Part shown: positions 17,935-30,936 of the stretch, piece after piece | Layout of the letters: the number at the start of each line of letters is the position of its first letter | How positions within the stretch are numbered: position 1 is the first letter of the stretch | DNA from: a virus | Reading direction: 5' to 3' (one strand) | IMG/VR virus record: IMGVR_UViG_3300033571_007760 | Location: 1 to 31,092 of that record | DNA: 31,092 bases | Position numbers and translations under genes: made by a program | The notes under the pieces: model-generated | The model's input: the letters and a program-made list of their open reading frames with translations, nothing else | Database searches by the model: none | What the model was told of the DNA's origin: nothing

Positions 17935-18909
17935 ATGTTTCTAGCATTTCTACCTAGACCAACTAAAGTTCTTAAAGTTACAAGTCCTGTAACCACAGGA
18001 TATAACTTGCGTACGGAAGCTGGTAGCCCAACATATCCTTTAAATGTAATAACACTTATTCAAACTACAGTAACATCGGATAAGGCCAATACTGCTGCAG
18101 TTGAAGTTGGAACTGGTTGGACAGCCGGAACATTTTTGTATATCAAAAATACAAGTACTGTAACAGGACGTAAAGGTATTACAGGAACCACAGGAACAAC
18201 AGGGACTGCTGGTGCAACAGGAAGTACAGGAACATCTGGTGCTGGCGGAACCGGTGGTAATGGTGGAAGCTCTGGTGCGGGAACCGCTGGTTCAGCAGGC
18301 TCTCCTGGCGGAACTGGCGGTACGGGAACAAACGGTGGTACAGGAAACGCCGGTGGAACTGGTGGAACTGGTGGAACTGCACTAAACGTACCAAATGTTA
18401 GTGGATTAATTACAGTAGTTGATAATGTTTCTGGATCTTTTATCGGCGGTGAAGGTGGAAACGGCGGCCTTGGAGGAACAGGCGGAGCTGGTGGTGATGG
18501 TGGTCCTGGCGGCTCAGGCGGAGGCGGAGGCGGCGGCGGCGGAGGATACTTCGCAGCAGGTAAGGGTGTAGGAAATCAAACTGGTGGTGGTGGAGGCGGT
18601 GGTGCCGGTTCTCCTGTAGGAAATGGAGGAACAGGAGCTAACGCTGGTTCTGCCGGTACATCAACAACTGGTGGTGCCGGCGGTAATGGTGCAGGATCTG
18701 CTGGTGCAGGCGGTACGGGTGGCAACTTAGGATTTGCTGGTTCTGCAGGAGCAACGGCAACAGCTGGCGGTGGTGCTGGTGGTGGATCCGGATCTACAGG
18801 AACTCAAGGTACCGGCGGATCAGGTGGTCTTGGCGGATCAGGTGGCCCAGCTGGATCTGGAGGTGCAGCGGTTAGCGGAAATAATTATATTTCAAGGTGG
18901 TACACTTAA
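17935..18909 (+). CDS. Glycine-rich fibre tip / adhesin with collagen-like segment
   Basis: This is a 324-residue protein. Residues 1-77 are non-repetitive (GYNLRTEAGSPTYPLNVITL, GWTAGTFLYIKNTSTVTG). Residues 78-116 read as 13 unbroken Gly-X-Y triplets (GRKGITGTTGTTGTAGATG...). Then come long Gly-rich tracts with GGTGG, GGNGG and poly-Gly, interrupted near 145-170 by a hydrophobic island (LNVPNVSGLITVVDNVSGSF). The end is NNYISRWYT. Gly-rich runs of this type form polyglycine-II sandwiches in the gp38 adhesins of T4-like phages, where intervening loops bind the receptor. A distal receptor-binding tip is therefore the best guess. The next Gly-rich gene starts on its stop codon (TAATG). Confidence 0.75.
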   Translation: MFLAFLPRPTKVLKVTSPVTTGYNLRTEAGSPTYPLNVITLIQTTVTSDKANTAAVEVGTGWTAGTFLYIKNTSTVTGRKGITGTTGTTGTAGATGSTGTSGAGGTGGNGGSSGAGTAGSAGSPGGTGGTGTNGGTGNAGGTGGTGGTALNVPNVSGLITVVDNVSGSFIGGEGGNGGLGGTGGAGGDGGPGGSGGGGGGGGGGYFAAGKGVGNQTGGGGGGGAGSPVGNGGTGANAGSAGTSTTGGAGGNGAGSAGAGGTGGNLGFAGSAGATATAGGGAGGGSGSTGTQGTGGSGGLGGSGGPAGSGGAAVSGNNYISRWYT

Positions 18910-19814
18910 TGGGTACAATTCAAAACGGCTCTTCAGGTTTTGCCGGCTCTACAGGTGCTCAGGGAGCAGCAGGAACTAGTGGTAGTACTCCTCCGACTGT
19001 AAGTTCTGTTGAATACCTAGTTGTCGCTGGTGGTGGCGGTGGTGGCGCTGCTTCTGCAGAAGGTGCTGGTGGTGGTGGTGGTGCTGGTGGTTATCGAACA
19101 GCGACTGGACTTTCTGTTAGCTCAGGATCTGCAATTACAGTAACCGTAGGCGCTGGTGGCGCTTTAGCAAACATGGGTTCTATTGACGGATACGATGGCA
19201 GTTCGTCTGTATTTGGATCAATCACTTCAGTAGGTGGCGGTGGTGGTGGATCTGCTCCTGTCGGCGGCGCAAACGCTGGTCGTTCTGGTGGTTCTGGTGG
19301 TGGTGGTGCAGGTAATTCAAATGGAGGAGTCGCAGCTTCCGGTGGCGCTGCAACTTCTGGACAAGGATATGCCGGTGGTTCTGGTAACGGAAATGATGCT
19401 GGTGGTGGCGGTGGTGGTGCAGGAGCTACTGGTAGTAACGGAACATACTCCAATCCAGACTCTTATGGTGGAGCAGGTGGAGCAGGTGTAGCTTCTTCGA
19501 TTACTGGATCATCAGTGACGTATGCTGGTGGTGGTGGCGGAGCTGGTGGAACTCGAGGTAGCGGTGGTTCGGGTGGTGGCGGCAATGGTTCAAATTTTTT
19601 AAGTGCAGGTAGCTCAGGAACCGCAAATCTCGGTGGCGGCGGTGGTGGTGGCGATGGCAGCTATGCTGGTGGCAACGGCGGTTCTGGTGTAGTAATCATC
19701 AGATACTCCGACTCTTATCCAGCAGCTACATCTACAACAGGATCGCCTACAGTAACTACTTCTGGCGGTTATCGTATCTACAAGTGGACTGGATCTGGTT
19801 CAATTACTTTCTAA
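18909..19814 (+). CDS. Second glycine-rich fibre tip / adhesin
   Basis: This is a 301-residue protein. I choose ATG 18909 (TAATG overlap with the previous stop) over the in-frame GTG at 18897. Residues 1-35 contain seven Gly-X-Y triplets (GSSGFAGSTGAQGAAGTSG). Next comes VEYLVVAGGGGGGAA, the opening of a glycine-rich domain common in phage tail proteins. Poly-Gly tracts follow, broken by presumed loops (GSIDGYDGSSSVFGSI, GTYSNPDSYGG, SITGSSVTYAGG). The end is a conserved cap: NGGSGVVIIRYSDSYPAATS and GGYRIYKWTGSGSITF. It is built like the preceding protein but not copied from it, so the two may form one tip complex or offer alternative receptor specificities. Confidence 0.78.
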   Translation: MGTIQNGSSGFAGSTGAQGAAGTSGSTPPTVSSVEYLVVAGGGGGGAASAEGAGGGGGAGGYRTATGLSVSSGSAITVTVGAGGALANMGSIDGYDGSSSVFGSITSVGGGGGGSAPVGGANAGRSGGSGGGGAGNSNGGVAASGGAATSGQGYAGGSGNGNDAGGGGGGAGATGSNGTYSNPDSYGGAGGAGVASSITGSSVTYAGGGGGAGGTRGSGGSGGGGNGSNFLSAGSSGTANLGGGGGGGDGSYAGGNGGSGVVIIRYSDSYPAATSTTGSPTVTTSGGYRIYKWTGSGSITF

Positions 19815-19856
19815 AAGGTAAGTGATGTGGTTAATATGTATGCAAAGGATTTTGGA

Positions 19857-20276
19857 ATGAATATTCAATACAAGATTGTGGAAGTATGGCCTAATGATCA
19901 TTTGATTGTGGCTAGATACTGGACTGACATTATTACTGAAGAAATGTTAAATAGTGATCCAAATAGTTCAAATCGTAAAGATGACGGATCACCTATTCGT
20001 TGTCGTACAGATGTTGCAATTAGTATTCCTATTCCAATTCCTGAGGAAAAAGAACTTAAGGAACTAATCCTTAAAAATGCTCCTATTGATTTTCTAAAAA
20101 CTTTAGAAAAAGTTCAAGATCCTACTATTGATACTTCTATGTCAAAACTTTTGGATTTGCAAGGTAAAACTTTTATGCAGGAAGATGCTGATAAGATTTT
20201 TGATCCGGAAAATCCTAGTAAAGAGCTTACAGAAGAAGAGATTGAAAAACTAATTGCTCTTGTTACAAATAAGTAA
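19857..20276 (+). CDS. Small fibre-cassette protein, possible tail-fibre chaperone
   Basis: From ATG 19857 the protein has 139 residues. This start has AAAGGA seven bases upstream. In-frame starts at GTG 19827 (AAAAGG eight bases upstream) and ATG 19836 are alternatives and would add 10 or 7 residues. The N-terminus (YKIVEVWPNDHLIVARYWTD, then DDGSPIRCRTDVAISIP) resembles small proteins found directly after fibre genes in many phages, some of them assembly chaperones. The C-terminal 60 residues are acidic and helical (KELTEEEIEKLIALV). Position after two adhesins supports a folding or assembly role, but this is inference. The next gene begins on the base after its stop. Confidence 0.65.
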   Translation: MNIQYKIVEVWPNDHLIVARYWTDIITEEMLNSDPNSSNRKDDGSPIRCRTDVAISIPIPIPEEKELKELILKNAPIDFLKTLEKVQDPTIDTSMSKLLDLQGKTFMQEDADKIFDPENPSKELTEEEIEKLIALVTNK

Positions 20277-21296
20277 ATGTATTTCTATTATGATAACGAT
20301 TTGAATGCTTACCCAACACTTGCTGAAGCTATAAAGTCGCAAAAGAAGTGTTGGTTATACTTTCACGATGATGCTTTTTCTAAAGTCAACTGGAAGATTG
20401 AACCAACTCTTCCATTAGACGAGTTGTATAAACGAAGAGCACTATATCTTCGTGAAAAGTATCAGTATCTTATTTTGTGCTATTCAGGTGGAACAGACTC
20501 AACAGCAATGCTTGAGACGTTCTACTATAACAATATTCATATTGATGAAATACTTGTTGTTGGTGCACTATCACAAGATCCACACTCTGGCTCCGATATA
20601 AATCACAATGGCGATTTGTATCACAATGCATTTCCACTATTGAACAAACTTAGTTTTCCCAATACTAAAATTACAATTAGCGACTATACCGAGTACTTTC
20701 GTAACGACAAAGTACACGAGTTTACACTATTTCAAAAGTATGGTAATGAATGGGCTAAGTATATCGGATCTTTGCAGAGTGTTCATAACATATTTTGGAG
20801 TGATTTAAGACGTATTCTTGGTATTAGAAACAACAAAGAAACAGCAGTTATACTTGGTCACGATAAAACAAGAGTAGAATATGATGAAAACGGAAAAGCT
20901 TTTACTAGATTTTCCAATCTAGCTTTTTGTGCTTATGGAAACAACTTTGATGATGAAAACTTTAGATTTGTTTTCTTTTATACAGCACCGGATCAAACAG
21001 CAGTTGATATTATCGCAAAACAAGCTCATGTTTTATATCGAACAGAACAGCTATGTAAATCTCTAAATAAACCTATACCAGAAACACACGATATCTACTA
21101 TCGTTACAAGAATCCTATTTCATTTATGTCAGAAAAAACTAAACTTTCTGTTTTAAGTCCAAGAGATACATTTATGATAAACAAAAAGGATTCTGAAATA
21201 TATAAGATGTATGTTGAAGGAATGAAAGTTCTCAAAGAATATATGCCATTAGATCGTAAACACTGCATATTTACAAGGCGTTATTATATTACATGA
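20277..21296 (+). CDS. PP-loop ATPase family protein (paralogue 1)
   Basis: This 339-residue protein contains the PP-loop SGGTDST at residues 70-76, the pyrophosphate-binding motif of N-type ATP pyrophosphatases (asparagine synthetase, QueC, TilS and ThiI families). These enzymes adenylate a carbonyl or carboxylate so a nucleophile such as N or S can add. It is preceded by LYKRRALYLREKYQYLILCY and followed by IHIDEILVVGAL. The same block occurs in the protein at 25008-26195, so the two are paralogues. Later segments (YIGSLQSVHNIFWSDLRRIL, AVILGHDKTRV) resemble an asparagine-synthase-like fold, but no CxxC or glutaminase domain is visible. The substrate is unknown. It opens the accessory operon directly after the fibre genes and overlaps the next gene by four bases (ATGA). 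Confidence 0.8.
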   Translation: MYFYYDNDLNAYPTLAEAIKSQKKCWLYFHDDAFSKVNWKIEPTLPLDELYKRRALYLREKYQYLILCYSGGTDSTAMLETFYYNNIHIDEILVVGALSQDPHSGSDINHNGDLYHNAFPLLNKLSFPNTKITISDYTEYFRNDKVHEFTLFQKYGNEWAKYIGSLQSVHNIFWSDLRRILGIRNNKETAVILGHDKTRVEYDENGKAFTRFSNLAFCAYGNNFDDENFRFVFFYTAPDQTAVDIIAKQAHVLYRTEQLCKSLNKPIPETHDIYYRYKNPISFMSEKTKLSVLSPRDTFMINKKDSEIYKMYVEGMKVLKEYMPLDRKHCIFTRRYYIT

Positions 21297-21760
21297 GCTA
21301 CGTTCTTGTGTTTCTTTTCTGGACTTTTACTGTGTATTGGCTACACAGGCTGGCTCATGTTTGGAAACCTATGCGCAAGTTTCACAACGATCATCATGCT
21401 CAGGTAACACAGCAAACGATTCAAGGGTTAAATTGGAAAAACGCTTTTCTTTGGTTTGATACATGGGAAAGTACAGTAGATCAGTGGTTAACTGAAGTCA
21501 TTCCTACACTTGTCATATCAGCAATTACAGGCCATTGGTGGTTGTTTGCTTTCTATTATATCTGGGCTGCGTTTATTCAAGAAGCTGTAGAGCATAACGA
21601 AAAGATCAATTTATATCCATTCATTACAAGCGGCAAATGGCATCTAATCCATCATGTCAATCCGACTAAGAACTATGGTGTGTTCTTTCCTATTTGGGAT
21701 ATTCTATTTGGAACGAAAGAAAATTTGAATGAGCACCCATCTAAATTGGTTCAAAAGTAA
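21293..21760 (+). CDS. Fatty-acid-hydroxylase / sterol-desaturase superfamily membrane protein
   Basis: A short (155-residue) di-iron membrane enzyme candidate. The histidine motifs of the superfamily are present: HRLAH (H18, H22), HNDHH (H31, H34, H35), EHNE (H101) and HLIHH (H117, H120, H121), matching HX3H, HX2HH and HX2HH. Hydrophobic segments at about 2-17 and 68-98 would hold it in the inner membrane. Usual members have about 200-300 residues, so this is a minimal form. Family members hydroxylate or desaturate lipids and carotenoids with O2, which makes a host or phage-made lipid-like substrate plausible. It is translationally coupled to both PP-loop genes (4-base overlap upstream, 32-base overlap downstream), suggesting joint action. 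Confidence 0.8.
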   Translation: MSYVLVFLFWTFTVYWLHRLAHVWKPMRKFHNDHHAQVTQQTIQGLNWKNAFLWFDTWESTVDQWLTEVIPTLVISAITGHWWLFAFYYIWAAFIQEAVEHNEKINLYPFITSGKWHLIHHVNPTKNYGVFFPIWDILFGTKENLNEHPSKLVQK

Positions 21761-22559
21761 TATTGCGGACCGTCTTAAAGATCCATCAACTGATCTTAAA
21801 TTAGAATTGAATCCATATCCATTTGAGATTATGGAGTTTCATGATGCTGCTAACTATACCGCAAAACTAATCTCACAAGCCCATAATAACATCTATATTG
21901 CACTTAGTGGGGGAGCAGATTCCGAATATACACTTAGAGCATTTCAACGTAATCATATCAATGTAACACCTATTATTGTGGTTACAGAAGGCAACAATGA
22001 AGAGTTGCAGTATGCTTATCGTGTATGTAAAGAGCTGGACATCAAACCAACTATACTTAATATTCCGGACGATCAATATCTTACTTGGTATTATAAAATT
22101 GTAAAAGATATAAGTGGTTTAGGTATTTACTGTATTCCGTCGATTGTTGCTTGTGAGTATGCTAAGGAGCATAGCGGTGTTTTAGTTATCGGCGAACATC
22201 TAATCGACACAGACAAACTTAGTAACAAGATTACACCAGGAGCTAACGAGTGGGATTTTTATAACGAGTGCTTTGTAGGTGAAGAGTGGACCATTCCGTT
22301 CTTTAACTATACTGTCGAACTAACCTACGCGATGATAGATCGTATCGAAGACGTACCGCTCAACATCTTTAAGTCAGCTCTTTATGGTACGGAGCTGCGA
22401 CCTATTATGGATTATAAATTTTCTGATAAATTTATGTCGGTAAGAAACATAATAAATAGGACAAGAAAACAAACACCCAATCCTCATGTAGACCTGGGTA
22501 GTAAAGAGGACTTCTTAAATGCCTTATACTCTAGAACAAATTTTTACAAAAACGGATGA
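21729..22559 (+). CDS. PP-loop ATPase, asparagine-synthase-like (divergent member)
   Basis: This 276-residue protein has the PP-loop SGGADSE at residues 60-66, following a strand NIYIAL, then YTLRAFQRNHINVTPIIVV. That order is typical of the ATP-pyrophosphatase fold. Further on are an EELQYAYRVCKELDIKPTIL helix and strand, and a C-terminal ELRPIMDYKFSDKF segment. It is more distant from the two other PP-loop proteins than they are from each other, and the block before the loop is different. The substrate is unknown, but amide or thioamide-type chemistry through acyl-adenylate is the family's reaction. The start overlaps the hydroxylase gene by 32 bases and the end overlaps the next gene by 41 bases, which are unusually long same-strand overlaps. 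Confidence 0.78.
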   Translation: MSTHLNWFKSNIADRLKDPSTDLKLELNPYPFEIMEFHDAANYTAKLISQAHNNIYIALSGGADSEYTLRAFQRNHINVTPIIVVTEGNNEELQYAYRVCKELDIKPTILNIPDDQYLTWYYKIVKDISGLGIYCIPSIVACEYAKEHSGVLVIGEHLIDTDKLSNKITPGANEWDFYNECFVGEEWTIPFFNYTVELTYAMIDRIEDVPLNIFKSALYGTELRPIMDYKFSDKFMSVRNIINRTRKQTPNPHVDLGSKEDFLNALYSRTNFYKNG

Positions 22560-22902
22560 GCAGGATTGGTCGAGAGTTATTGTCGGCGATATAAGTCGTT
22601 CTATGAACTCTGCACCAGATTCTAGAGATGAACAAGGTAGATCGTTATTTTCACAAGAAGATCGTACTGGAAAACAATCTTGGTTTTTAGATTTCAAAAA
22701 TCGTGTTGGATCAAACTTTATTGGTTGGGATAGAGAATATCGTGGCAACAATCAATTGGCACTTATCTTTTATCTAGATAACGAAAATACAGGACGCATT
22801 CTTCAAGAACTATGTGCTGAGCATAGAAATGCTTTACCTAATCAACCCTATCAAATGTCATATCGTTTAACTGATAACGAAGGAAACGAGATTACGTTGT
22901 GA
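22519..22902 (+). CDS. Unknown protein in the PP-loop / radical SAM operon
   Basis: A 127-residue soluble protein I do not recognise. It has no Cys pair, signal peptide or membrane segment. The middle is polar and charged (SRSMNSAPDSRDEQGRSLFS, DRTGKQSW). The second half looks alpha/beta, with LALIFYLDNENTGRILQELC and YQMSYRLTDNEGNEITL. ATG 22519 is supported by AGAGGA eight bases upstream but implies a 41-base overlap with the PP-loop gene. The next in-frame Met would be near 22603. Its stop is shared with the following gene (GTGA). By position it could be an accessory subunit, carrier or substrate of the neighbouring enzymes, which is inference. Confidence 0.6.
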   Translation: MPYTLEQIFTKTDEQDWSRVIVGDISRSMNSAPDSRDEQGRSLFSQEDRTGKQSWFLDFKNRVGSNFIGWDREYRGNNQLALIFYLDNENTGRILQELCAEHRNALPNQPYQMSYRLTDNEGNEITL

Positions 22903-23366
22903 AGTATATCAACTATCTAAATCATGTACCACAAGTTCCTGAAGAGCTGTTAGATCCAGTAGATACTATTATAGCAGCATCATGCGAAAAAATGTTAGTC
23001 AAAGATTTTGCTACATTTGAATATAAAACTGTCAATTCTGCTTTAGACAAATGGGTTCATGATACATTCAAAGTGAAATGTTATGCCAAGTATCAAGTTA
23101 TTCATCACGGCATTCCTATCCACAAAGACAGACCCGCATTTCCAGGTGATAGAAGAATGGCGTTCAACTATCTTCTACAGCTCGGTGGTAATAATGTAAA
23201 AACTACAGTCTATGCTGACGATAAAACTACAATTCTTCAGCAGGAAATTATTCCACTTAAAACATGGCACTCGCTTGTCGTAGAAGAGTGGCACGGAGTT
23301 GATGGTTTAACTCCAGGACTACCAAGAGTTGCTTTAACAGTAACACCTATTTTACCTCCTCCATGA
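22899..23366 (+). CDS. Small probable 2OG-Fe(II) oxygenase
   Basis: This 155-residue protein starts at GTG 22899, overlapping the previous stop (GTGA). It shows the facial triad pattern of the double-stranded beta-helix oxygenases: IHKD (H75, D77), a distal EEWHGV (H132), and R143 eleven residues later for 2-oxoglutarate binding. The strands between (RMAFNYLLQLGGNNVKTTVY, LKTWHSLVVEE) fit the same fold. It is shorter than most members, and I infer the family from motif spacing only, so a cupin without enzyme activity remains possible. It lies between the unknown protein and the radical SAM gene, with 4-base overlaps on both sides, so it belongs to the same translational unit. Confidence 0.6.
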   Translation: MKYINYLNHVPQVPEELLDPVDTIIAASCEKMLVKDFATFEYKTVNSALDKWVHDTFKVKCYAKYQVIHHGIPIHKDRPAFPGDRRMAFNYLLQLGGNNVKTTVYADDKTTILQQEIIPLKTWHSLVVEEWHGVDGLTPGLPRVALTVTPILPPP

Positions 23367-25024
23367 TAAACAAGATTATATTATTTGGTGAGTTTACCTC
23401 AAAAAATTTTGATGACTTCGGTAGCGATTTTCAGTTCGCTTACTGTAAGAATTTTGATATCACCAGACTTGGTAACGCTCTATACAAAGAGGGATTTGAA
23501 GTAAAACAAGTCCATCACTGTACATCGTTTAATAGAAGAGAACTAGAACATATTTTAGAAACTTTTTCACAAAATGAAAAGGTACTTATCTATATCTCCA
23601 GTGGATTTCTAACAACAGTCAATAGACAAGAATGTAATAGAAAAGATCCTGCTGTAGTTGGAGCAGAATTAGTAGATAAGCCTCGATATGAGATTGGTGA
23701 GTTTTGGGGCGAGCGTTCGTTTGAGTTTCTAAAAGATATTGGAATTTTAGCTATCAAGCACAAGTTTCCAGTTGTTATGGGAGGAACAGAAGTTATTCCT
23801 CATACATTTACTGATTGGGCAGAAGCACGAGCGCGCGGCTATGAAGTATTGGATATGTTTGTAAACTACTTTATTGTAGGTAAAGGACACGACTCTATAG
23901 TAAAGTTTGCTAGAGGTGAAAAGCTTAATCATTTTGAATTAGAGTACACCAGCGGTAAGAAAGCAAAGCTGGTCAATAACGGACCTATTCGTGATTGGGA
24001 CGATTACGCTTTTACGCCAACACCAGACCTTCAATTATCAGAAGGCGAAGCTGTATTCTCTCAGGTTGCAGGTGGATGTATTTTTAGCTGTAGCTTTTGT
24101 GTATTTGATTATCTCGGAAAGAAGCCCAATGAATATCTTCGTTCGTACGAAAGCCTAAAAAACGAAATTGTATATAATTGGGAACGATCACGTACCAGAA
24201 CATATCTGTTTACTGATCATATGATTAATGATAACTTGACAAAGTTAAAGTATCTTGCACGCATACGCGATGAAACAGGTATTGATGTTCGTTGGGGTTC
24301 TTATGCCAGACTTGATACAATCAAAAAGAAAGAAAATATTCAGCTGTTCAAAGATGCAGGAGCCGCTGGTGTTATATTTGGTATTGAGTCGTTGAAGAAA
24401 GATGTTGGTGCTTATATCGGTAAGAATACTGACGGAGATAAGATTAAAGAGTCACTTCATATTTTTCGTGATGGCATAGGTGATAGTTGTATTATTAGCG
24501 GTTCGTTTATTTGTGGTGCACCTACTGAGACAAAAGATGAGTTAAGAGAAACTTTTAACTGGTTAAATACAGAAGAAGGTCTTCATCTATTTGACCACCA
24601 CATTTGGACACCATTGTTTATCCAGTATGGTATCAATGACAAAAATGACATCAATAGAAAACGACCAAATCCATGGAAAGATTATACGTTTCCGAATAAA
24701 CAGTTGGAAATAAACGGTATCGGATGGACTAGTCCTTGGGGTACATACGAAGAGTTTCAAAGACTGTCTATCGAGTTCAATCAATATAACGATCTACAAA
24801 TAGAGATGAATGAAGATCAGGCAAAGACAGCCAAGCGCGGAGTCTTTGGTATGCCAGTTGTTAGTAATGTATTAGAAAACGGTGTTGAAGAATATGTACG
24901 AGCTTTAAGAGCACGAGAACCTCTTCATTATAATCGTCGTGAAGCATTTAAGTCTAAAACTAAAACATTGATTGAGAACTATAGAAAGAGTGTTCTTGGA
25001 AACTACTATGGTGAATTTGCCTGA
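23363..25024 (+). CDS. B12-binding-type radical SAM protein
   Basis: This 553-residue protein has two visible parts. Residues about 1-190 look like the Rossmann-type domain of cobalamin-dependent radical SAM enzymes (KVLIYISSGFL, FPVVMGGTEVIP, YFIVGKGHDSIVKFARGE). I see no DxHxxG, so base-off B12 ligation through that His is unlikely and B12 binding is uncertain. The radical SAM core follows, with the 4Fe-4S motif CIFSCSFC (C239, C243, C246; CX3CX2C) in a GGC context, RWGSYARLD, and GVIFGIESLKKDVG. The C-terminal 150 residues are family-specific. Family reactions include methylation, ring formation and C-S or C-C bond formation. ATG 23363 overlaps the previous stop by four bases. Confidence 0.86.
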   Translation: MINKIILFGEFTSKNFDDFGSDFQFAYCKNFDITRLGNALYKEGFEVKQVHHCTSFNRRELEHILETFSQNEKVLIYISSGFLTTVNRQECNRKDPAVVGAELVDKPRYEIGEFWGERSFEFLKDIGILAIKHKFPVVMGGTEVIPHTFTDWAEARARGYEVLDMFVNYFIVGKGHDSIVKFARGEKLNHFELEYTSGKKAKLVNNGPIRDWDDYAFTPTPDLQLSEGEAVFSQVAGGCIFSCSFCVFDYLGKKPNEYLRSYESLKNEIVYNWERSRTRTYLFTDHMINDNLTKLKYLARIRDETGIDVRWGSYARLDTIKKKENIQLFKDAGAAGVIFGIESLKKDVGAYIGKNTDGDKIKESLHIFRDGIGDSCIISGSFICGAPTETKDELRETFNWLNTEEGLHLFDHHIWTPLFIQYGINDKNDINRKRPNPWKDYTFPNKQLEINGIGWTSPWGTYEEFQRLSIEFNQYNDLQIEMNEDQAKTAKRGVFGMPVVSNVLENGVEEYVRALRAREPLHYNRREAFKSKTKTLIENYRKSVLGNYYGEFA

Positions 25025-26195
25025 AGTTAACGTACCACATTATTGGTACAATAATATGATGTTCAATTCTAGAGAAGCTGCTCTTGATGCAATGCTTCTC
25101 AACAATGATTTCAATTCCACAATGGAATTTAGACTTGGTGAATATGTTTACGACAAGATTGATTGGACGCAAAGAATAGAGTATAGTCTATCCACATTAT
25201 ATAAAATGCGTGCACAACAGATACGTGACAAGTACGCTTATCTAATTGTCAACTTTTCTGGTGGAAGTGACTCGACACAAATGCTCTATTCGTTTATCAA
25301 TAACAACATTTTTATTGATGAAATCTTGATGATTAACTACGAACGAATTGCTGACGGACTAAGTAAAGATGAATATATGAAAGATAAGGAATTGCAGCAG
25401 TTATTAGAATATAAATTAGCTGCTAAACCTATCCTCGAGTATGTTAAAAAGGTAAGCCCTAAAACAAAAATAAGTGTTGTTGATGCCAGTGATTTTGTTG
25501 TAGATCAGTTCACGTCTCTTTCCAAATATCATGTTGTTGTCGGAAGAGACAAAGATTTAGAATCTACATCACCAAGATTGTTTACTGCTCGTCCTCAAGT
25601 CTATTCTTACTATACAAATTTACATATTCTAGAAAAAGGTAAGCTTGATAAATCGACGTGTTTGGTTCGTGGATTTGAAAAGCCAATTATAATTATCAAC
25701 GATTTAAATGAAGTAGTTACACTTTTTAGCGATGTAGTTATGGTGTCTAGAAGAACGGATCAGTTTAGTATTGAAGATTTTTATTGGTCACCAGAATTAC
25801 CATATATTACCGTAAAGCAAAGTCAGCTAATCAAGAACGAGTTACAGACAAACAAAGAGTTTTATGAAAGGTTTTATTCAAGCAAACAAAAGATTCAGGC
25901 GCATACAGATGTTTTTACACATTCGCCTGCTTATATGATTGAAAGAGAGTTGAGTCGTATCATATACCCAGATTTCAATCTAAGAACTTTTGCTGCTCCA
26001 AAAACTATATGGATTCCTGGAGAAGTTAAGGCGCTCAAAAAGTTAGGTCTAACTACACATACAAATGATGTTGTAAAAGACAACGCAAATCATAAACTAA
26101 ACTATTACAAAAACATTGTAAACAAAAAACAGTTTCATGAAACACTTTATACTAAAGGATACTTTGTAGGAATGTTTCGACCAAAATGGAGTTAA
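25008..26195 (+). CDS. PP-loop ATPase family protein (paralogue 2)
   Basis: This protein has 395 residues from ATG 25008, chosen because TTGGAA sits seven bases upstream. The in-frame TTG at 24972 lies deeper in the radical SAM gene. SGGSDST at residues 84-90 is the PP-loop. The block around it (LYKMRAQQIRDKYAYLIVNF, then IFIDEILMINY) lines up with the protein at 20277-21296, so they share a recent ancestor. The remainder is longer and different (AKPILEYVKKVSPKTKISVV, VVMVSRRTDQFSIEDFYWSP), which may mean a different substrate. It overlaps the radical SAM gene by 17 bases, and the secreted-protein gene starts one base after its stop. Confidence 0.8.
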   Translation: MVNLPEVNVPHYWYNNMMFNSREAALDAMLLNNDFNSTMEFRLGEYVYDKIDWTQRIEYSLSTLYKMRAQQIRDKYAYLIVNFSGGSDSTQMLYSFINNNIFIDEILMINYERIADGLSKDEYMKDKELQQLLEYKLAAKPILEYVKKVSPKTKISVVDASDFVVDQFTSLSKYHVVVGRDKDLESTSPRLFTARPQVYSYYTNLHILEKGKLDKSTCLVRGFEKPIIIINDLNEVVTLFSDVVMVSRRTDQFSIEDFYWSPELPYITVKQSQLIKNELQTNKEFYERFYSSKQKIQAHTDVFTHSPAYMIERELSRIIYPDFNLRTFAAPKTIWIPGEVKALKKLGLTTHTNDVVKDNANHKLNYYKNIVNKKQFHETLYTKGYFVGMFRPKWS

Positions 26196-26196
26196 G

Positions 26197-27165
26197 ATGT
26201 TAAAAGTATTTTTAGTTGCTGTGGCTACTTTGATTTCTTCGGTAGCTTTTGCACAGAAGCAACAGATAGAAGTTATTAGTAGATTTGATGCACATATTAC
26301 TACTGCAGTAGTAGCAAACGAGCTTCTTCGTATTGTCAATAAGATGCAAGATCAATTTGAGTTTCGTATGAGTGCTGTGCCTGGTGCAGGAGGAGAACCA
26401 GCAGATCGAAGAGCAATAACGCTCGCGCGCTCCGGACAACCTACTCTTGTCTTAGGATCTTCGTCAACTTGGGCTTTTAATCGGTATGTATTTGGTAATA
26501 CATTCGATAGAGACAAAGATATTGTTCCTATTATCGGAATGGGCGGAATTCCATTTGCTGTACAAGTTAATCCAGATTTGGGTATTGATACTGTAGATCA
26601 GCTAGTTGATAGAATCCGAAATAAGAAAGAAGCATTTCATGCAACAACAAGTGCATCATCTGCCTCTAGACTTTTCGCTGATTTGTTTATCGACCACTAT
26701 AAGCTAAACAATGTTAAGCATATATCATATCGTCTTTCTTCTGATATGATTAGAGGAGTATTAGGTAAAGAAGCCGACTTTACAATCTACAACTATGCAG
26801 ACAGCGCTGCTTTGAAAGTTATTGCTGTTTCTTCTATAGATAGAAGTCCATTGTTTCCTAATGCACCTACAGGTAAAGAAATTGGATTTCCAGATTTTCG
26901 TTACAATACAATAGCAACTCTTTCTACACCTAAAGAGAGTTTGATACATTTTGCGAAAATTGCTCCAATCTTTATTGACGCTTGTAAAACAGTGGAGATG
27001 AAAACTATATTTGACAAAGCTAAAATGATGCAGTTTTGTTATAATACAGAAAAGTCAATGACTAGAATTAACGATGAAATTCAGTTACTAAAAAAATATG
27101 AAAATGTAATTTATACAAACTTAGGACCTAGTGTCCAAACAACTAGGGACTTACGAGTTCCTTGA
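26197..27165 (+). CDS. Secreted Bug/TctC-type substrate-binding protein
   Basis: This 322-residue protein has a Sec signal peptide (MLKVFLVAVATLISSVAFA, cut after residue 19). The mature part resembles the tripartite tricarboxylate transporter receptors (Bug/TctC): SAVPGAGGEPADRRA (59-73), LVLGSSSTWAFNRYVF, IPIIGMGG-like strand, GIDTVDQLVDRIR, HATTSASSASRLFADLF, HISYR, VLGKEADF, and SPLFPNAPTGKEIGFP. Such proteins bind small carboxylates in the periplasm and feed TctAB permeases. No permease gene is nearby, so it would work with host TctAB or have another role. It is the last gene of the accessory operon. Its 3' end overlaps the minus-strand oxygenase gene by 55 bases, and a terminator follows 26 bases after the stop. 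Confidence 0.85.
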   Translation: MLKVFLVAVATLISSVAFAQKQQIEVISRFDAHITTAVVANELLRIVNKMQDQFEFRMSAVPGAGGEPADRRAITLARSGQPTLVLGSSSTWAFNRYVFGNTFDRDKDIVPIIGMGGIPFAVQVNPDLGIDTVDQLVDRIRNKKEAFHATTSASSASRLFADLFIDHYKLNNVKHISYRLSSDMIRGVLGKEADFTIYNYADSAALKVIAVSSIDRSPLFPNAPTGKEIGFPDFRYNTIATLSTPKESLIHFAKIAPIFIDACKTVEMKTIFDKAKMMQFCYNTEKSMTRINDEIQLLKKYENVIYTNLGPSVQTTRDLRVP

Positions 27166-27719
27166 GTAATAGGTGTAACACGATGTAGTATAAAGGACGG
27201 AAACAAAACAATCTGTCCTTTTTTCAAATCGACTATTGTTGGTTCTGATTCTTTACCTGTATTAATCTGAAACTCTCCACCCTCAAAATCATCGTTTAGC
27301 AATAACGAGAGAGATAGCTTTCTTGGTTGAATGTCTTTATCTCTCTCGTTATTTCCGTATGCCATGTCCGAGTGCCAATCATATCGACCATCTTTGTCAT
27401 ACGTTGTATATTGAAAATATGCATAACCGTTTAAATTGAAATTGTAAAACTGTTGATTAGCACTATAGATAACATCGTTTAATCTATGGAAAATCCAAGA
27501 AGTATCTTCGTTAGGATGATGAAATTTTACATTTGAGTCACGAACATTTTTTACACTTTCATTATCAGAACTAAAGGTAGTACCCAGCTCTGTTCCCTGA
27601 CTGTCACAGTATTCAACAATACGATCAATCTCTTCAGAACTAAAAGCACCATTCCAAGTAACGTAAGAGTAAGATATGCGTGCTCTTTCTTCTGGATTAT
27701 TGTAAATCATATTATACAC
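27111..27719 (-). CDS. 2OG-Fe(II) oxygenase, PKHD / prolyl-4-hydroxylase type
   Basis: This 202-residue protein has the full 2OG-Fe(II) triad: WHSDMAYG (H116, D118), distal HRVTP (H179) and TRKSLVVW (R189). Before these come GYAYFQYTTYDKDGRYDWH, and between them KLSLSLLLNDDFEGGEFQI and LKKGQIVLFPSFILHRV, a typical PKHD-type hydroxylase layout. The N-terminus (ISYSYVTWNGAFSSEEIDRIVEYC) is the usual lead-in. Its length is near that of small family members, several of which occur in T4-like cyanophages. Protein or small-molecule hydroxylation is expected, but the target is unknown. It is downstream of, and overlaps by eight bases, another oxygenase gene on the same strand. The region encoding residues about 166-176 doubles as the plus-strand terminator. 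Confidence 0.9.
   Translation of the reverse strand: MYNMIYNNPEERARISYSYVTWNGAFSSEEIDRIVEYCDSQGTELGTTFSSDNESVKNVRDSNVKFHHPNEDTSWIFHRLNDVIYSANQQFYNFNLNGYAYFQYTTYDKDGRYDWHSDMAYGNNERDKDIQPRKLSLSLLLNDDFEGGEFQINTGKESEPTIVDLKKGQIVLFPSFILHRVTPITQGTRKSLVVWTLGPKFV
27192..27224 (+). terminator. Intrinsic terminator of the accessory operon, inside an antisense gene
   Basis: A 10-bp stem (27192-27201 with 27212-27221, one G-U pair) closes a 10-base A-rich loop, and a run of six T (27219-27224) covers its 3' edge. On the plus strand this is a good factor-independent terminator. It begins 26 bases after the stop of the Bug/TctC-like gene. The same bases code for part of the oxygenase on the minus strand, so one sequence meets two constraints. 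Confidence 0.8.
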
Positions 27720-28404
27720 TAAACCGTCTCCAGTTTTCTACAGGTTGAATGCCAAGAGGACTACCTGTTCTATCTTTATATGTTAAAATAATATCACCTG
27801 CTAAACAAACTCTCTGTTCATCCAATTTCTCAGGAGTTGGTGTTCCTTCATCTTGAAAATTGTCAGGGGTACCTAATGTATCGTGAACTAGATTTGCAGG
27901 AAATACAAATAAGTTTCCTTCTTTTGGTTTAAACTCCCAAGTTCCGGAGTTGAACTTATCCCATATACCATTTGTATTGTTCCATCTACAAGCTCCTGGA
28001 TATGGCTCATGTCTATGTTCATAATTGTAGAATCTAATTGGTCGATCAAAGTCTTTTGGTATATTAGGATAGTAAGTAAACGAGATATGAGCATCACCAT
28101 GAGCATGACGACCTGTCGATCCTTCTTTGCGAATATTCATCCAAGTTTTGGTAATATTGATATCGAAAAGATCAATATCTATATTAAGAGTTTGTAGGTA
28201 TTGCTCAACACATTTAACTGCAAACATGAAATAAGGAGCAAAGTTTTCCTCGTGGTGAATATTTACATGGGCCGTAAACTCGTTTGAATAGCCTTCAGGC
28301 GTCATATATTTGAAAATATGCTCATAGAAAATTGGCTTGAATTTATCATGATCCGGATACATGAATTCGGCAACAAGGGTAGGAAACAAAGCATGGGCAA
28401 TCAT
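27712..28404 (-). CDS. 2OG-Fe(II) oxygenase, TIGR02466-like family
   Basis: This 230-residue protein begins MIAHALFPTLVAEF, then has ITKTWMNIRKEGSTGRHAHGDAHISFTYYP near residues 84-112, as in the phage and marine-bacterial TIGR02466 / 2OG-FeII_Oxy_5 family. Likely iron ligands are H102 and D104 (with H100 close by) and the distal H174 in GNLFVFPANLVHDTL. R198 is a candidate 2-oxoglutarate ligand. The insertion between about 125 and 160 (YNYEHRHEPYPGACRW) is longer than I would expect and may shape the substrate site. AAGGA precedes the ATG, and a sigma70-like promoter lies just upstream. The downstream oxygenase overlaps it by eight bases, giving a two-gene minus-strand operon opposite to all other genes here. 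Confidence 0.85.
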   Translation of the reverse strand: MIAHALFPTLVAEFMYPDHDKFKPIFYEHIFKYMTPEGYSNEFTAHVNIHHEENFAPYFMFAVKCVEQYLQTLNIDIDLFDINITKTWMNIRKEGSTGRHAHGDAHISFTYYPNIPKDFDRPIRFYNYEHRHEPYPGACRWNNTNGIWDKFNSGTWEFKPKEGNLFVFPANLVHDTLGTPDNFQDEGTPTPEKLDEQRVCLAGDIILTYKDRTGSPLGIQPVENWRRFSV

Positions 28405-28756: not shown

Positions 28757-29067
28757 TGACAGGCGAAATTGTAAATCTAATCAACAAGTATGGCTTTCCT
28801 ATTGTTGCTGCCGGCGGTATGGGATATTTGATTTTCTACGTGTGGAAGTGGGCAACCCAAGAAATTAAGCCAGTTCTATCTGAAGCAAATACAGTTCTGA
28901 TCGCGTTGATTGATCGTATTCGTATGCTCGACAACGACCTTATTCGTTTGAATCAGAAGGTCAACGTAGTATTAACACTACGCGGACAAGAAATCGAGGA
29001 AATGAAAGATGCGCATCTTAACGGCGGTAATACTCCTGCTGATAAGCAGCCAAACGATAGCAAGTGA
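28756..29067 (+). CDS. Small membrane protein, paralogue B, overlapping csgF
   Basis: This 103-residue protein starts on the last base of the preceding stop (TAATG). Residues about 12-33 (YGFPIVAAGGMGYLIFYVWK) form the membrane span. Residues about 45-85 form a helix (LIALIDRIRMLDNDLIRLNQ) homologous to the one in the previous protein. The last 20 residues are polar (GGNTPADKQPNDSK) and are encoded by DNA that also encodes the signal peptide of CsgF in another frame. Two tandem copies imply duplication followed by specialisation, or a hetero-oligomer. Function is unknown, with holin-like or pore-anchoring roles possible. Confidence 0.75.
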   Translation: MTGEIVNLINKYGFPIVAAGGMGYLIFYVWKWATQEIKPVLSEANTVLIALIDRIRMLDNDLIRLNQKVNVVLTLRGQEIEEMKDAHLNGGNTPADKQPNDSK

Positions 29068-29449
29068 ACTAGTTCATCAATTTAGAAGTCCAGCGTTTAG
29101 TGGTATTGGTTATTCTGCTCACGTTTTGACTATAGAAAACTTAGAAGCAACTCGTAGACAAAAATTAGCAGATGATAAAAAAGCGGCTGCGTTAAAAGAA
29201 GCACAAGATGCAAAGAATACAAATCTTGCGAAGTTTCTAAACAATCTTGAGTCGCGTGTATATGCCACACTATCGCAGAAAATTGCTGAAGAGCTATTCA
29301 GTCAAAATGGTAATACAACTGGAACATTTGATGTAGCAGGTAATAATATTCAGTGGGCTAATACTGGTTCAACAATTACATTACGAATTACTGATCCTGC
29401 CGGTAAAGTAACAGAGATTGAAGTTCCTTATGGGAGTTTGGCATGGTAA
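29009..29449 (+). CDS. csgF: CsgF-like curli assembly factor
   Basis: This 146-residue protein (E. coli CsgF has 138) has a signal peptide MRILTAVILLLISSQTIA and a mature N-terminus SELVHQFRSPAFSGIG. E. coli CsgF has FQFRNPNFGG at the same place, the segment that inserts into the CsgG channel and forms its second constriction. An Ala/Lys-rich helix (about 45-75) replaces part of the usual neck. A further helix follows, then a C-terminal strand domain (ITLRITDPAGKVTEIEVP) that parallels the E. coli QLNVTDRKTGQTSTIQV strand. It acts at the outer surface with CsgG, coupling secretion to nucleation. The start overlaps the upstream gene by 59 bases, so the whole signal peptide is overprinted. The stop overlaps csgG by seven bases. 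Confidence 0.88.
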   Translation: MRILTAVILLLISSQTIASELVHQFRSPAFSGIGYSAHVLTIENLEATRRQKLADDKKAAALKEAQDAKNTNLAKFLNNLESRVYATLSQKIAEELFSQNGNTTGTFDVAGNNIQWANTGSTITLRITDPAGKVTEIEVPYGSLAW

Positions 29450-30252
29450 AGATTTTTGGTATGGTTTTTGCTAGTCTATTATTAGCTGGTTGTGTTCTTG
29501 AGTTTGATAACTCTCGCGAAAAAATTAATTCGTTGTCTGAACCAGCTGAGATTATAACTCGCAAACGTTCAAATGATTTGATGAATCTACCTCCGCTTGA
29601 CGGACCAAAGATTCCTATTGCTGTTTATCGTTTTCCTGACTTGACAGGTCAACGTAAACCTTCACAGAACTTTGCTAATCTAAGTTCTGCAGTAACACAA
29701 GGTGCTGAAGTATTTCTGTACAAGGCACTACAAGATGCTGGTAAAGGAAATTGGTTTCAGGTTATCGAACGTTCTGCACTTGAAAATTTAGTAAAAGAAC
29801 GACAGCTGATTCGTTCTCAACGAGAACTATACGAGAAGGATCAAGCTAAACCATTAACGCCACTTATTGTGGCTGGTATCATGCTCGACGGAGGAGTTGT
29901 CGGATATGATACAAATACAGGATCAGGTGGTATCGGTGCTAGATTACTCGGTATTGGTGCTCAACAAGAATATCGTAAAGACGAAGTCACAGTTGTATTG
30001 CGTTTGATTTCGGTAAATACAGGCGAAGTTCTATTGTCAACTGGTGCGTCTAAGACGGTTCTGAGTACGAGCGCGGGGGCGAACGTATTCAAGTTCATTG
30101 ATGTTGGAACTAAATCTGTGGAATTTGAAGCTGGAACAGCAGTCAATGAACCAACAACATACGCTGTAAGAATAGCAATAGAAGCAGCGGTGACTGATAT
30201 GGTAAAGGAGGGAGCTAAGAAAAAGCTCTGGAGTTTTAAAAAGAAAGGGTAA
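29443..30252 (+). CDS. csgG: CsgG outer-membrane curli secretion lipoprotein
   Basis: This 269-residue protein (E. coli 277) is a lipoprotein with lipobox LLAGC (Cys17). It keeps the CsgG landmarks: IAVYRFPDLTGQRKP (59-73), AVTQGAEVFLYKALQDA, GNWFQVIERSALENLVKERQ (102-121), PLIVAGIMLDGGVVGY, the GSGGIGARLLGIGAQQEYR hairpin region (160-178), VLRLISVNTGEVL and KFIDVGTKSVEFEAG. The constriction loop (about 71-84) reads RKPSQNFANLSSAV against KPYPASNFSTAV in E. coli, so the Tyr51 and Phe56 positions seem changed. CsgG forms a nine-subunit pore in the outer membrane that exports unfolded curlin. The substrate is probably the curlin-like protein encoded next. ATG 29443 lies inside the end of csgF. 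Confidence 0.94.
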   Translation: MVKIFGMVFASLLLAGCVLEFDNSREKINSLSEPAEIITRKRSNDLMNLPPLDGPKIPIAVYRFPDLTGQRKPSQNFANLSSAVTQGAEVFLYKALQDAGKGNWFQVIERSALENLVKERQLIRSQRELYEKDQAKPLTPLIVAGIMLDGGVVGYDTNTGSGGIGARLLGIGAQQEYRKDEVTVVLRLISVNTGEVLLSTGASKTVLSTSAGANVFKFIDVGTKSVEFEAGTAVNEPTTYAVRIAIEAAVTDMVKEGAKKKLWSFKKKG

Positions 30253-30258
30253 CAACCG

Positions 30259-30936
30259 ATGAAACTTCCAAGTTTGGCAATGTTGTCATTCTTGGTCATG
30301 GTTGGAAATGCAAACGCGCAACAGAATAGTGTGTATGTGGAGCAGATAGGTTCGGGATCGACAATTAATTTCACACAAACTGGCGTAGGAAATGCGATTG
30401 GTAACTCAACAACGAAAGCGATAGTAAACGGTAACAACAACGACGTAACCGTAGATCAGATCGGTAATTCTAATATTGCTTCGCTTAATGTGCAAGGTGA
30501 TAGTGCTACAATCTTATCTACTACAACAGGTGATAATAACAGCGTAACAATTAGTTGCGGCGCAGCAGGCGATTGCACAGGTTCAAACATTACGAATACG
30601 ATCACAGGTGACGGAAACCAAGTTTCTACTACATCTGATGGTCTGATTGATTCAACTGTTACAATCAACTCTGATAACAATACTGTCACGATCAACAATA
30701 CATCAACAGCTGTTTCTGGTGCTAAGTCTAATATCGACATTAGCTCTGGTGGCGGTAACTCTGTAACACTCACACAAGCGGGTGCTGCTGGAGCTAACGG
30801 TCACGATGCTACAATCGCTATTGTAGGTGCCACGAACACAGTCGATGTGAAGCAAGGTGGAAGCAATGACTCTAAAGTCAATGCTACAATCACTGGCTCT
30901 GGTAACGCTCTGTCTATTAAGTCCAACCTACAGTAA
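30259..30936 (+). CDS. Curlin-like secreted repeat protein
   Basis: This is a 225-residue protein with signal peptide MKLPSLAMLSFLVMVGNANA, cut before QQN. The mature part has curlin-type strand-turn units with Asn, Gln and Gly at fixed points, for example NSVYVEQIGSGSTINFTQTG (23-42) and NNDVTVDQIGNSNIASLNVQ (60-79), which fit the V-x-Q-x-G-x-x-N-x-A pattern. Later units are degenerate and Thr/Ser/Asn-rich (NNTVTINNTST, GNSVTLTQAG, NTVDVKQGG). Two Cys (C100, C106) are unusual for curlins. It is most likely the amyloid-like subunit exported through the adjacent CsgG. CsgA has about 150 residues, so this is longer. The next gene starts inside its 3' end. Confidence 0.82.
   Translation: MKLPSLAMLSFLVMVGNANAQQNSVYVEQIGSGSTINFTQTGVGNAIGNSTTKAIVNGNNNDVTVDQIGNSNIASLNVQGDSATILSTTTGDNNSVTISCGAAGDCTGSNITNTITGDGNQVSTTSDGLIDSTVTINSDNNTVTINNTSTAVSGAKSNIDISSGGGNSVTLTQAGAAGANGHDATIAIVGATNTVDVKQGGSNDSKVNATITGSGNALSIKSNLQ

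Follow-up and report, generated by a model that had tools for sequence, protein, structure and literature searches.

The closest described relatives of the enzymes discussed here are asparagine synthetase B, beta-lactam synthetase and carbapenam synthetase, whose PP-loop and synthetase fold, with a remnant of the preceding domain, recur in models of two proteins of this locus, PP1 and PP2. The locus differs from these systems in having no glutaminase domain, in carrying three PP-loop genes in a single operon and in showing no significant sequence similarity to AsnB. Solute receptors of the TctC (Bug) family provide a second point of comparison, as a PF03401 match above the cut-off is found here too and TctA is also present in some relatives; unlike the known receptors, however, this TctC is phage-borne, usually stands beside a PP-loop ligase, and has no TctAB with it in the DNA analysed. 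Bacterial natural-product tailoring clusters likewise pair adenylating ligases with Rieske, 2OG, di-iron and radical SAM enzymes, carbamoyltransferases and methyltransferases, whereas the present kit is carried by phages and no carrier protein, NRPS/PKS or RiPP precursor was identified in it.

Auxiliary genes of phages are usually described as lone borrowed host genes, and 2OG oxygenases are common among those of cyanophages, pelagiphages and SUP05 phages. Here, by contrast, an entire ligase–oxygenase–transporter kit recurs, conserved as a whole and with interchangeable parts. A literature search found no paper describing a phage system of this composition, in agreement with the preliminary description of this DNA, whose author knew of none.

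Layout of the island

The window, by which we mean the whole stretch of DNA that was analysed, is a complete IMG/VR record of 31,092 bases, yet a fragment of a phage genome. The source phage is T4-like, with a gp6 nearest to those of Methylophilales phage Melnitz and pelagiphage HTVC008M (approximately 35% identity); a megablast comparison of the whole window with isolate phages gave no match. The island, at 20277–28404, contains ten ORFs, including three for PP-loop proteins, three for 2OG-type oxygenases, and those for FAH, a radical SAM enzyme, TctC and D:

20277–21296, plus strand: PP1, predicted PP-loop ligase (SGGTDS); AF2 model, VIA-align, invariant PP-loop residues
21293–21760, plus strand: FAH, FA_hydroxylase-family membrane di-iron enzyme, 155 aa; PF04116, 8e-17
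21729–22559, plus strand: PP2, second predicted PP-loop ligase (SGGADS), same fold class as PP1; AF2 model, VIA-align
22519–22902, plus strand: D, small recurring protein, 127 aa; no Pfam match, HHalign to u13 and u6
22899–23366, plus strand: E, putative 2OG-type oxygenase; HxD...H...R pattern, no Pfam match
23363–25024, plus strand: radical SAM enzyme, nearest to B12-type subfamilies; PF04055, 3.8e-14
25008–26195, plus strand: PP3, third predicted PP-loop ligase (SGGSDS), PP1 paralogue; ORF open from TTG 24972
26197–27165, plus strand: TctC/Bug-type solute receptor of tripartite tricarboxylate transporters; PF03401, 4.2e-12
27111–27719, minus strand: I, 2OG-Fe(II) oxygenase; PF13640, 7.8e-15, phrog_61, 2.5e-35
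27712–28404, minus strand: J, 2OG-Fe(II) oxygenase of the PF13759 type; PF13759, 5.3e-9, phrog_81, 2.6e-24

The ORFs, strands and overlaps reported in the preliminary description are all present, the plus-strand genes overlapping by 4, 32, 41, 4 and 4 bases, and by 17 provided that PP3 starts at ATG 25008 rather than TTG 24972. All of the Pfam matches listed exceed the cut-offs, those of I and J being to two 2OG families; Pfam searches of PP1, PP3, D and E returned nothing above cut-off, and that of PP2 weak PP-loop matches only. Late-promoter motifs (TATAAATA) occur at a frequency no higher than chance. What had been called a secreted binding protein can now be named a TctC/Bug solute receptor, secretion being suggested by an N-terminus that resembles a signal peptide as judged by eye. 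Among the three proposed 2OG oxygenases, I and J are borne out by Pfam matches and metal ligands, and E is a candidate on its HxD...H...R pattern. The placement between receptor-binding and curli genes holds in the window but not for some relatives, whose islands lie away from adhesin genes (L052, L055, L057, L066, L069 and L091).

Predicted folds and active sites

The PP-loop, 8-His, HxD...H...R and CX3CX2C patterns read from the letters are genuine, their residues being conserved across homologues; loss of active sites, which had been named as a sign of unrelated accessory genes, is thus not what is seen. SGGxDS is kept in 54 of 55 PP1 and 103 of 107 PP2 homologues, S[GS]GxDS in 105 of 107 PP3 homologues, and the PP-loop residues of PP1 show no variation in 32 homologues.

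Structure prediction, suggested earlier for all the proteins, was carried out for PP1 and PP2, and both models, which are confident, point to the asparagine-synthetase/beta-lactam-synthetase fold. The PP1 model (AF2; pLDDT 93, pTM 0.91) finds its best VIA-align match in AsnB 1ct9 (Z 11.5, rmsd 6.1, 275 aligned), a moderate likeness, and the PP2 model (pLDDT 95.3) aligns with human ASNS 9b6c (Z 14.5, rmsd 3.6, 243 aligned), while other PP-loop families (LarE, NadE) score lower (Z up to 7.8 for PP1 and 11.7 for PP2). The glutaminase domain with its catalytic Cys is absent, both proteins being too short and the models aligning only from AsnB residue ~119 or 143 onwards. Neither PP1 nor PP2 gave a significant sequence alignment with E. 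coli AsnB; since this comparison is uninformative, it is the fold evidence that bears the assignment to a ligase class. Profile comparison of PP1 with PP3 (HHalign; probability 100, E 8e-55) indicates that PP3 is a PP1 paralogue, and the synthetase fold is assigned to it by homology. In the PP1–PP2 profile alignment, VIGEH of PP2 is aligned to ILGHDK of PP1, and we infer that this pair is the counterpart of the AsnB GEGSDE loop. Because the glutaminase domain is missing, the PP-loop proteins are best described as probably working like asparagine synthetase, with adenylation of a carboxylate as the predicted activity, rather than as true asparagine synthetases. Two contigs, L110 and L117, carry distant relatives of PP2 beside FolE/QueD/QueE-like genes, and these were set aside; a guess that they are QueC failed for the one in L117, which matches Asn_synthase (PF00733, above the family cut-off).

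Nine His residues of FAH are invariant across 25 sequences. The ligands of I are H116 (38/38), D118 (37/38), H179 (38/38) and R189 (37/38); those of J follow an HxH...H pattern, with H100, H102, H174 and R198 kept in 34 of 34 homologues, and H75, D77, H124, H132 and R143 of E are conserved in all four sequences. The profile of D is linked by HHalign to the small proteins u13 (probability 97.7) and u6 (probability 91.7), which recur in the islands of relatives, and D belongs to a divergent, recurring small-protein family. In the radical SAM enzyme, the cysteines of CX3CX2C (239/243/246) are invariant in three enzymes of this type. Its best NCBIfam matches are to B12-type families, far below the cut-offs and mostly covering the SAM core, and its match to the TIGR04479 PhpK family (1e-21) is also far under the family cut-off. 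Hundreds of its relatives occur elsewhere, in many phages outside the island; the gene is optional island cargo, and with a family so widespread in phages it was ruled out as the gene defining the system.

Recurrence of the module and its transport genes

None of PP1, FAH, the radical SAM enzyme, PP3 and TctC has a match among 50,697 isolate phage records, and it is because of this absence that the chemistry has so far gone unstudied. A pattern-seeded scan of GTDB genomes, which uses exact peptide patterns and so leaves absence from bacteria unproven, returned no PP1; FAH gave a single match in such a scan, on one short MAG contig that may be a misbinned phage. Searches of IMG/VR with PP1, PP2 and FAH recovered 79 distinct loci with the layout PP1-[oxygenase]-PP2-[PP3-TctC or other ligase], a number that counts related phage loci and not independent events. 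PP2 is present in 46, FAH (itself a search seed) in 34 and PP3 in 30 of the 53 loci with PP1, and the genes usually run in the order adhesin, Z, PP1, oxygenase, PP2, [small protein], PP3, TctC, I, J. A conserved multi-enzyme phage module, with PP1-[oxygenase]-PP2 and PP3-TctC as its core, is therefore supported, and it is present in dozens of distinct IMG/VR loci.

Scattering of these genes in related phages was the other outcome that would have spoken for an unrelated collection; in records of 100–168 kb, however, the PP-loop matches fall at a single site, save in the core-type G006 and the distantly related G010 (two sites). The multi-step pathway of the preliminary description thus survives as a conserved module, and not as one fixed nine-gene route, because the radical SAM gene is optional and some components are also found by themselves: PP1 is found without FAH and PP2 (L005, L012, L020, L025), and PP3-TctC pairs exist without PP1, FAH or PP2. 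Ligases from other superfamilies (Amidoligase_2, ATP-grasp) are also found inside islands; these assignments, like those of Rieske, FA_desaturase, TctA and ABC importer genes, are from Pfam.

The slot beside PP2 is occupied by FAH or by a Rieske oxygenase, and almost never by both. FAH borders PP2 for 42 of 46 FAH genes and the Rieske oxygenase does so in 11 of 15 cases; among loci with PP2, 45 have FAH only, 13 Rieske only, one both and 13 neither (Fisher p 1.6e-6). A radical SAM gene sits between PP1 and PP2 in L078. Such swapping of parts between enzyme superfamilies suggests that the chemical product, and not any single gene, is what selection acts on.

PP3 adjoins TctC in 38 of 48 homologues, and the PP3, PPQueC and PP30 ligases together border TctC in 48 of 58 cases, compared with a mean of 20.8 and a maximum of 32 in 2000 within-island shuffles. 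As an independent test, loci fetched with the radical SAM enzyme alone contain TTT genes in 8 of 10 cases with PP3 and in none of 53 without it (p 1.2e-8); the link is looser in the PP3-seeded set, where a TTT gene lies no more than two genes away for just 27 of the 50 copies of PP3. TctA is encoded in the relative L035 (4.8e-125), no TctA- or TctB-sized candidate was noticed among the ORFs of the window, which is a fragment, and a full NMT1-type ABC importer stands beside PP1 and a 2OG-like gene in L114 (13362–15573), with L115 and L116 alike. The linkage of PP3 to TTT genes favours a small carboxylate that is imported. The TctC of the window, with no transporter genes beside it, could serve another role.

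Several minor observations concern these contigs. Putative TctC genes stand beside TctA in L177, L189 and L195. Near the module, L052 (13608–16555) and L055 (4307–5479, 10859–13929) have AMP-binding-enzyme-like genes in pairs and a tryptophan-halogenase-like gene. A Gram-negative porin gene (Porin_4, 9.9e-21) is present on the island-bearing contig L069 (11564–12469); together with the TctC genes it presumably hints at a host among the Burkholderiales. The presence of tctA on SUP05 viral contigs has been reported previously, with its role unknown (PMC4164917).

A proposed pathway and its alternatives

Recurrent linkage, conserved motifs, the fold class of PP1 and PP2, the exclusion between oxygenases and the linkage of PP3 to transporters are the observations from which we infer, with a probability of about 0.5, a modular small-molecule pathway in uncultured T4-like and jumbo phages, comprising capture of a carboxylate, ATP-dependent ligation and hydroxylation. 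In the chemistry, order of steps and class of substrate that we envisage, the phage TctC would act in the periplasm, binding an organic acid and handing it to a TctAB transporter, which would be that of the host for the window phage, with a phage-encoded TctA in some relatives. PP3 would adenylate the carboxylate with ATP and join it to ammonia or another amine, as is done by asparagine-synthetase relatives that lack the glutaminase, beta-lactam synthetase among them; PP1 and PP2 would carry out further ligations; FAH, or the Rieske oxygenase in relatives, and the 2OG oxygenases would hydroxylate the scaffold, and the radical SAM enzyme might add an optional alkylation or rearrangement. Since parts occur alone, some island genes may stand outside this route. 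What the data support is a chemical kit of mix-and-match parts, selected for linked function. More tentatively, and at clearly less than even odds, these phages may own an interchangeable natural-product-like pathway in which a specific imported carboxylate, glutaminase-less asparagine-synthetase-type ligases and swappable oxygenases yield, while infection proceeds, a metabolite or surface compound specific to the phage. The module is small and its parts are named, so that its expression in a laboratory strain could reveal the product directly.

The main rival, although we think it rather doubtful, is modification of the host envelope, in which hydroxylation and amidation of a membrane lipid, of lipid A or of a lipid headgroup would alter the surface of the infected cell, for example to shut out other phages. 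FA_hydroxylase is a family of membrane lipid enzymes, and bacterial lipid hydroxylases are known both in it (OlsE) and among 2OG-type enzymes (OlsC/LpxO). The short contig L051 (1–6172), binned as a Nitrososphaerales archaeon and possibly a misbinned phage, carries FAH, PP2 and a TctC fragment; it also encodes an FA_desaturase (7.3e-22), another desaturase-like protein and a GNAT, as might be expected of lipid chemistry. The substitution of Rieske oxygenases for FAH in PP2 loci argues against an envelope target, however, as do the linkage to TctC, TctA and ABC importers, which suggests an imported solute, and the lack of any constant glycosyltransferase or acyltransferase in the islands.

Post-translational modification of an adhesin or tail fibre of the phage itself, with the glycine-rich or collagen-like repeats encoded just upstream as targets, is improbable. 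Glycine-rich adhesin genes and gene Z precede the island in most T4-like relatives, Gly_rich_2 is found at 18897–19814 of the window, and 2OG enzymes can hydroxylate such repeats; yet the module also occurs in the six loci away from adhesin genes noted above, and this reading gives no role to the complete importers or to a TctC receptor that is secreted. Equally improbable is a hot spot in which unrelated accessory genes have gathered and serve no common function. The cargo is variable (amidoligase, methyltransferase, carbamoyltransferase, ATP-grasp and twitch radical SAM genes), and the common occurrence of radical SAM relatives elsewhere in phages is in keeping with this, but the exclusion between FAH and Rieske oxygenases, the adjacency of FAH to PP2 and of PP3 to TctC, and the independent test of PP3 with TTT genes are not, and distance correlations are mostly higher within the module than with a neck gene (for example 0.65 for PP1–PP2 versus 0.17–0.19). 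A DNA base modification pathway, suggested by QueC-type PP-loop enzymes and by the FolE/QueD/QueE-like neighbours of some distant PP2 relatives, is very improbable, as the window island (within a fragment) has no nucleotide enzyme, neither a membrane hydroxylase nor a secreted receptor fits such a pathway, and the L117 relative is of the Asn_synthase type by Pfam and not QueC. DNA and tail-protein targets therefore both look unlikely.

Downstream of the island, at 29009–30936 of the window, genes for CsgF, CsgG and a curlin-repeat protein (PF07012, 2.1e-6, over the cut-off) lie side by side. Phage Melnitz was reported to have csgF and csgG and to lack csgA and csgB (PMC9004378), whereas a curlin-repeat gene is present here, and this group of phages may therefore encode its own amyloid subunit. 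In L022, a FecR-domain gene and a second curlin-repeat gene (87 aa) are located at 18638–20009, downstream of the phage curli genes.
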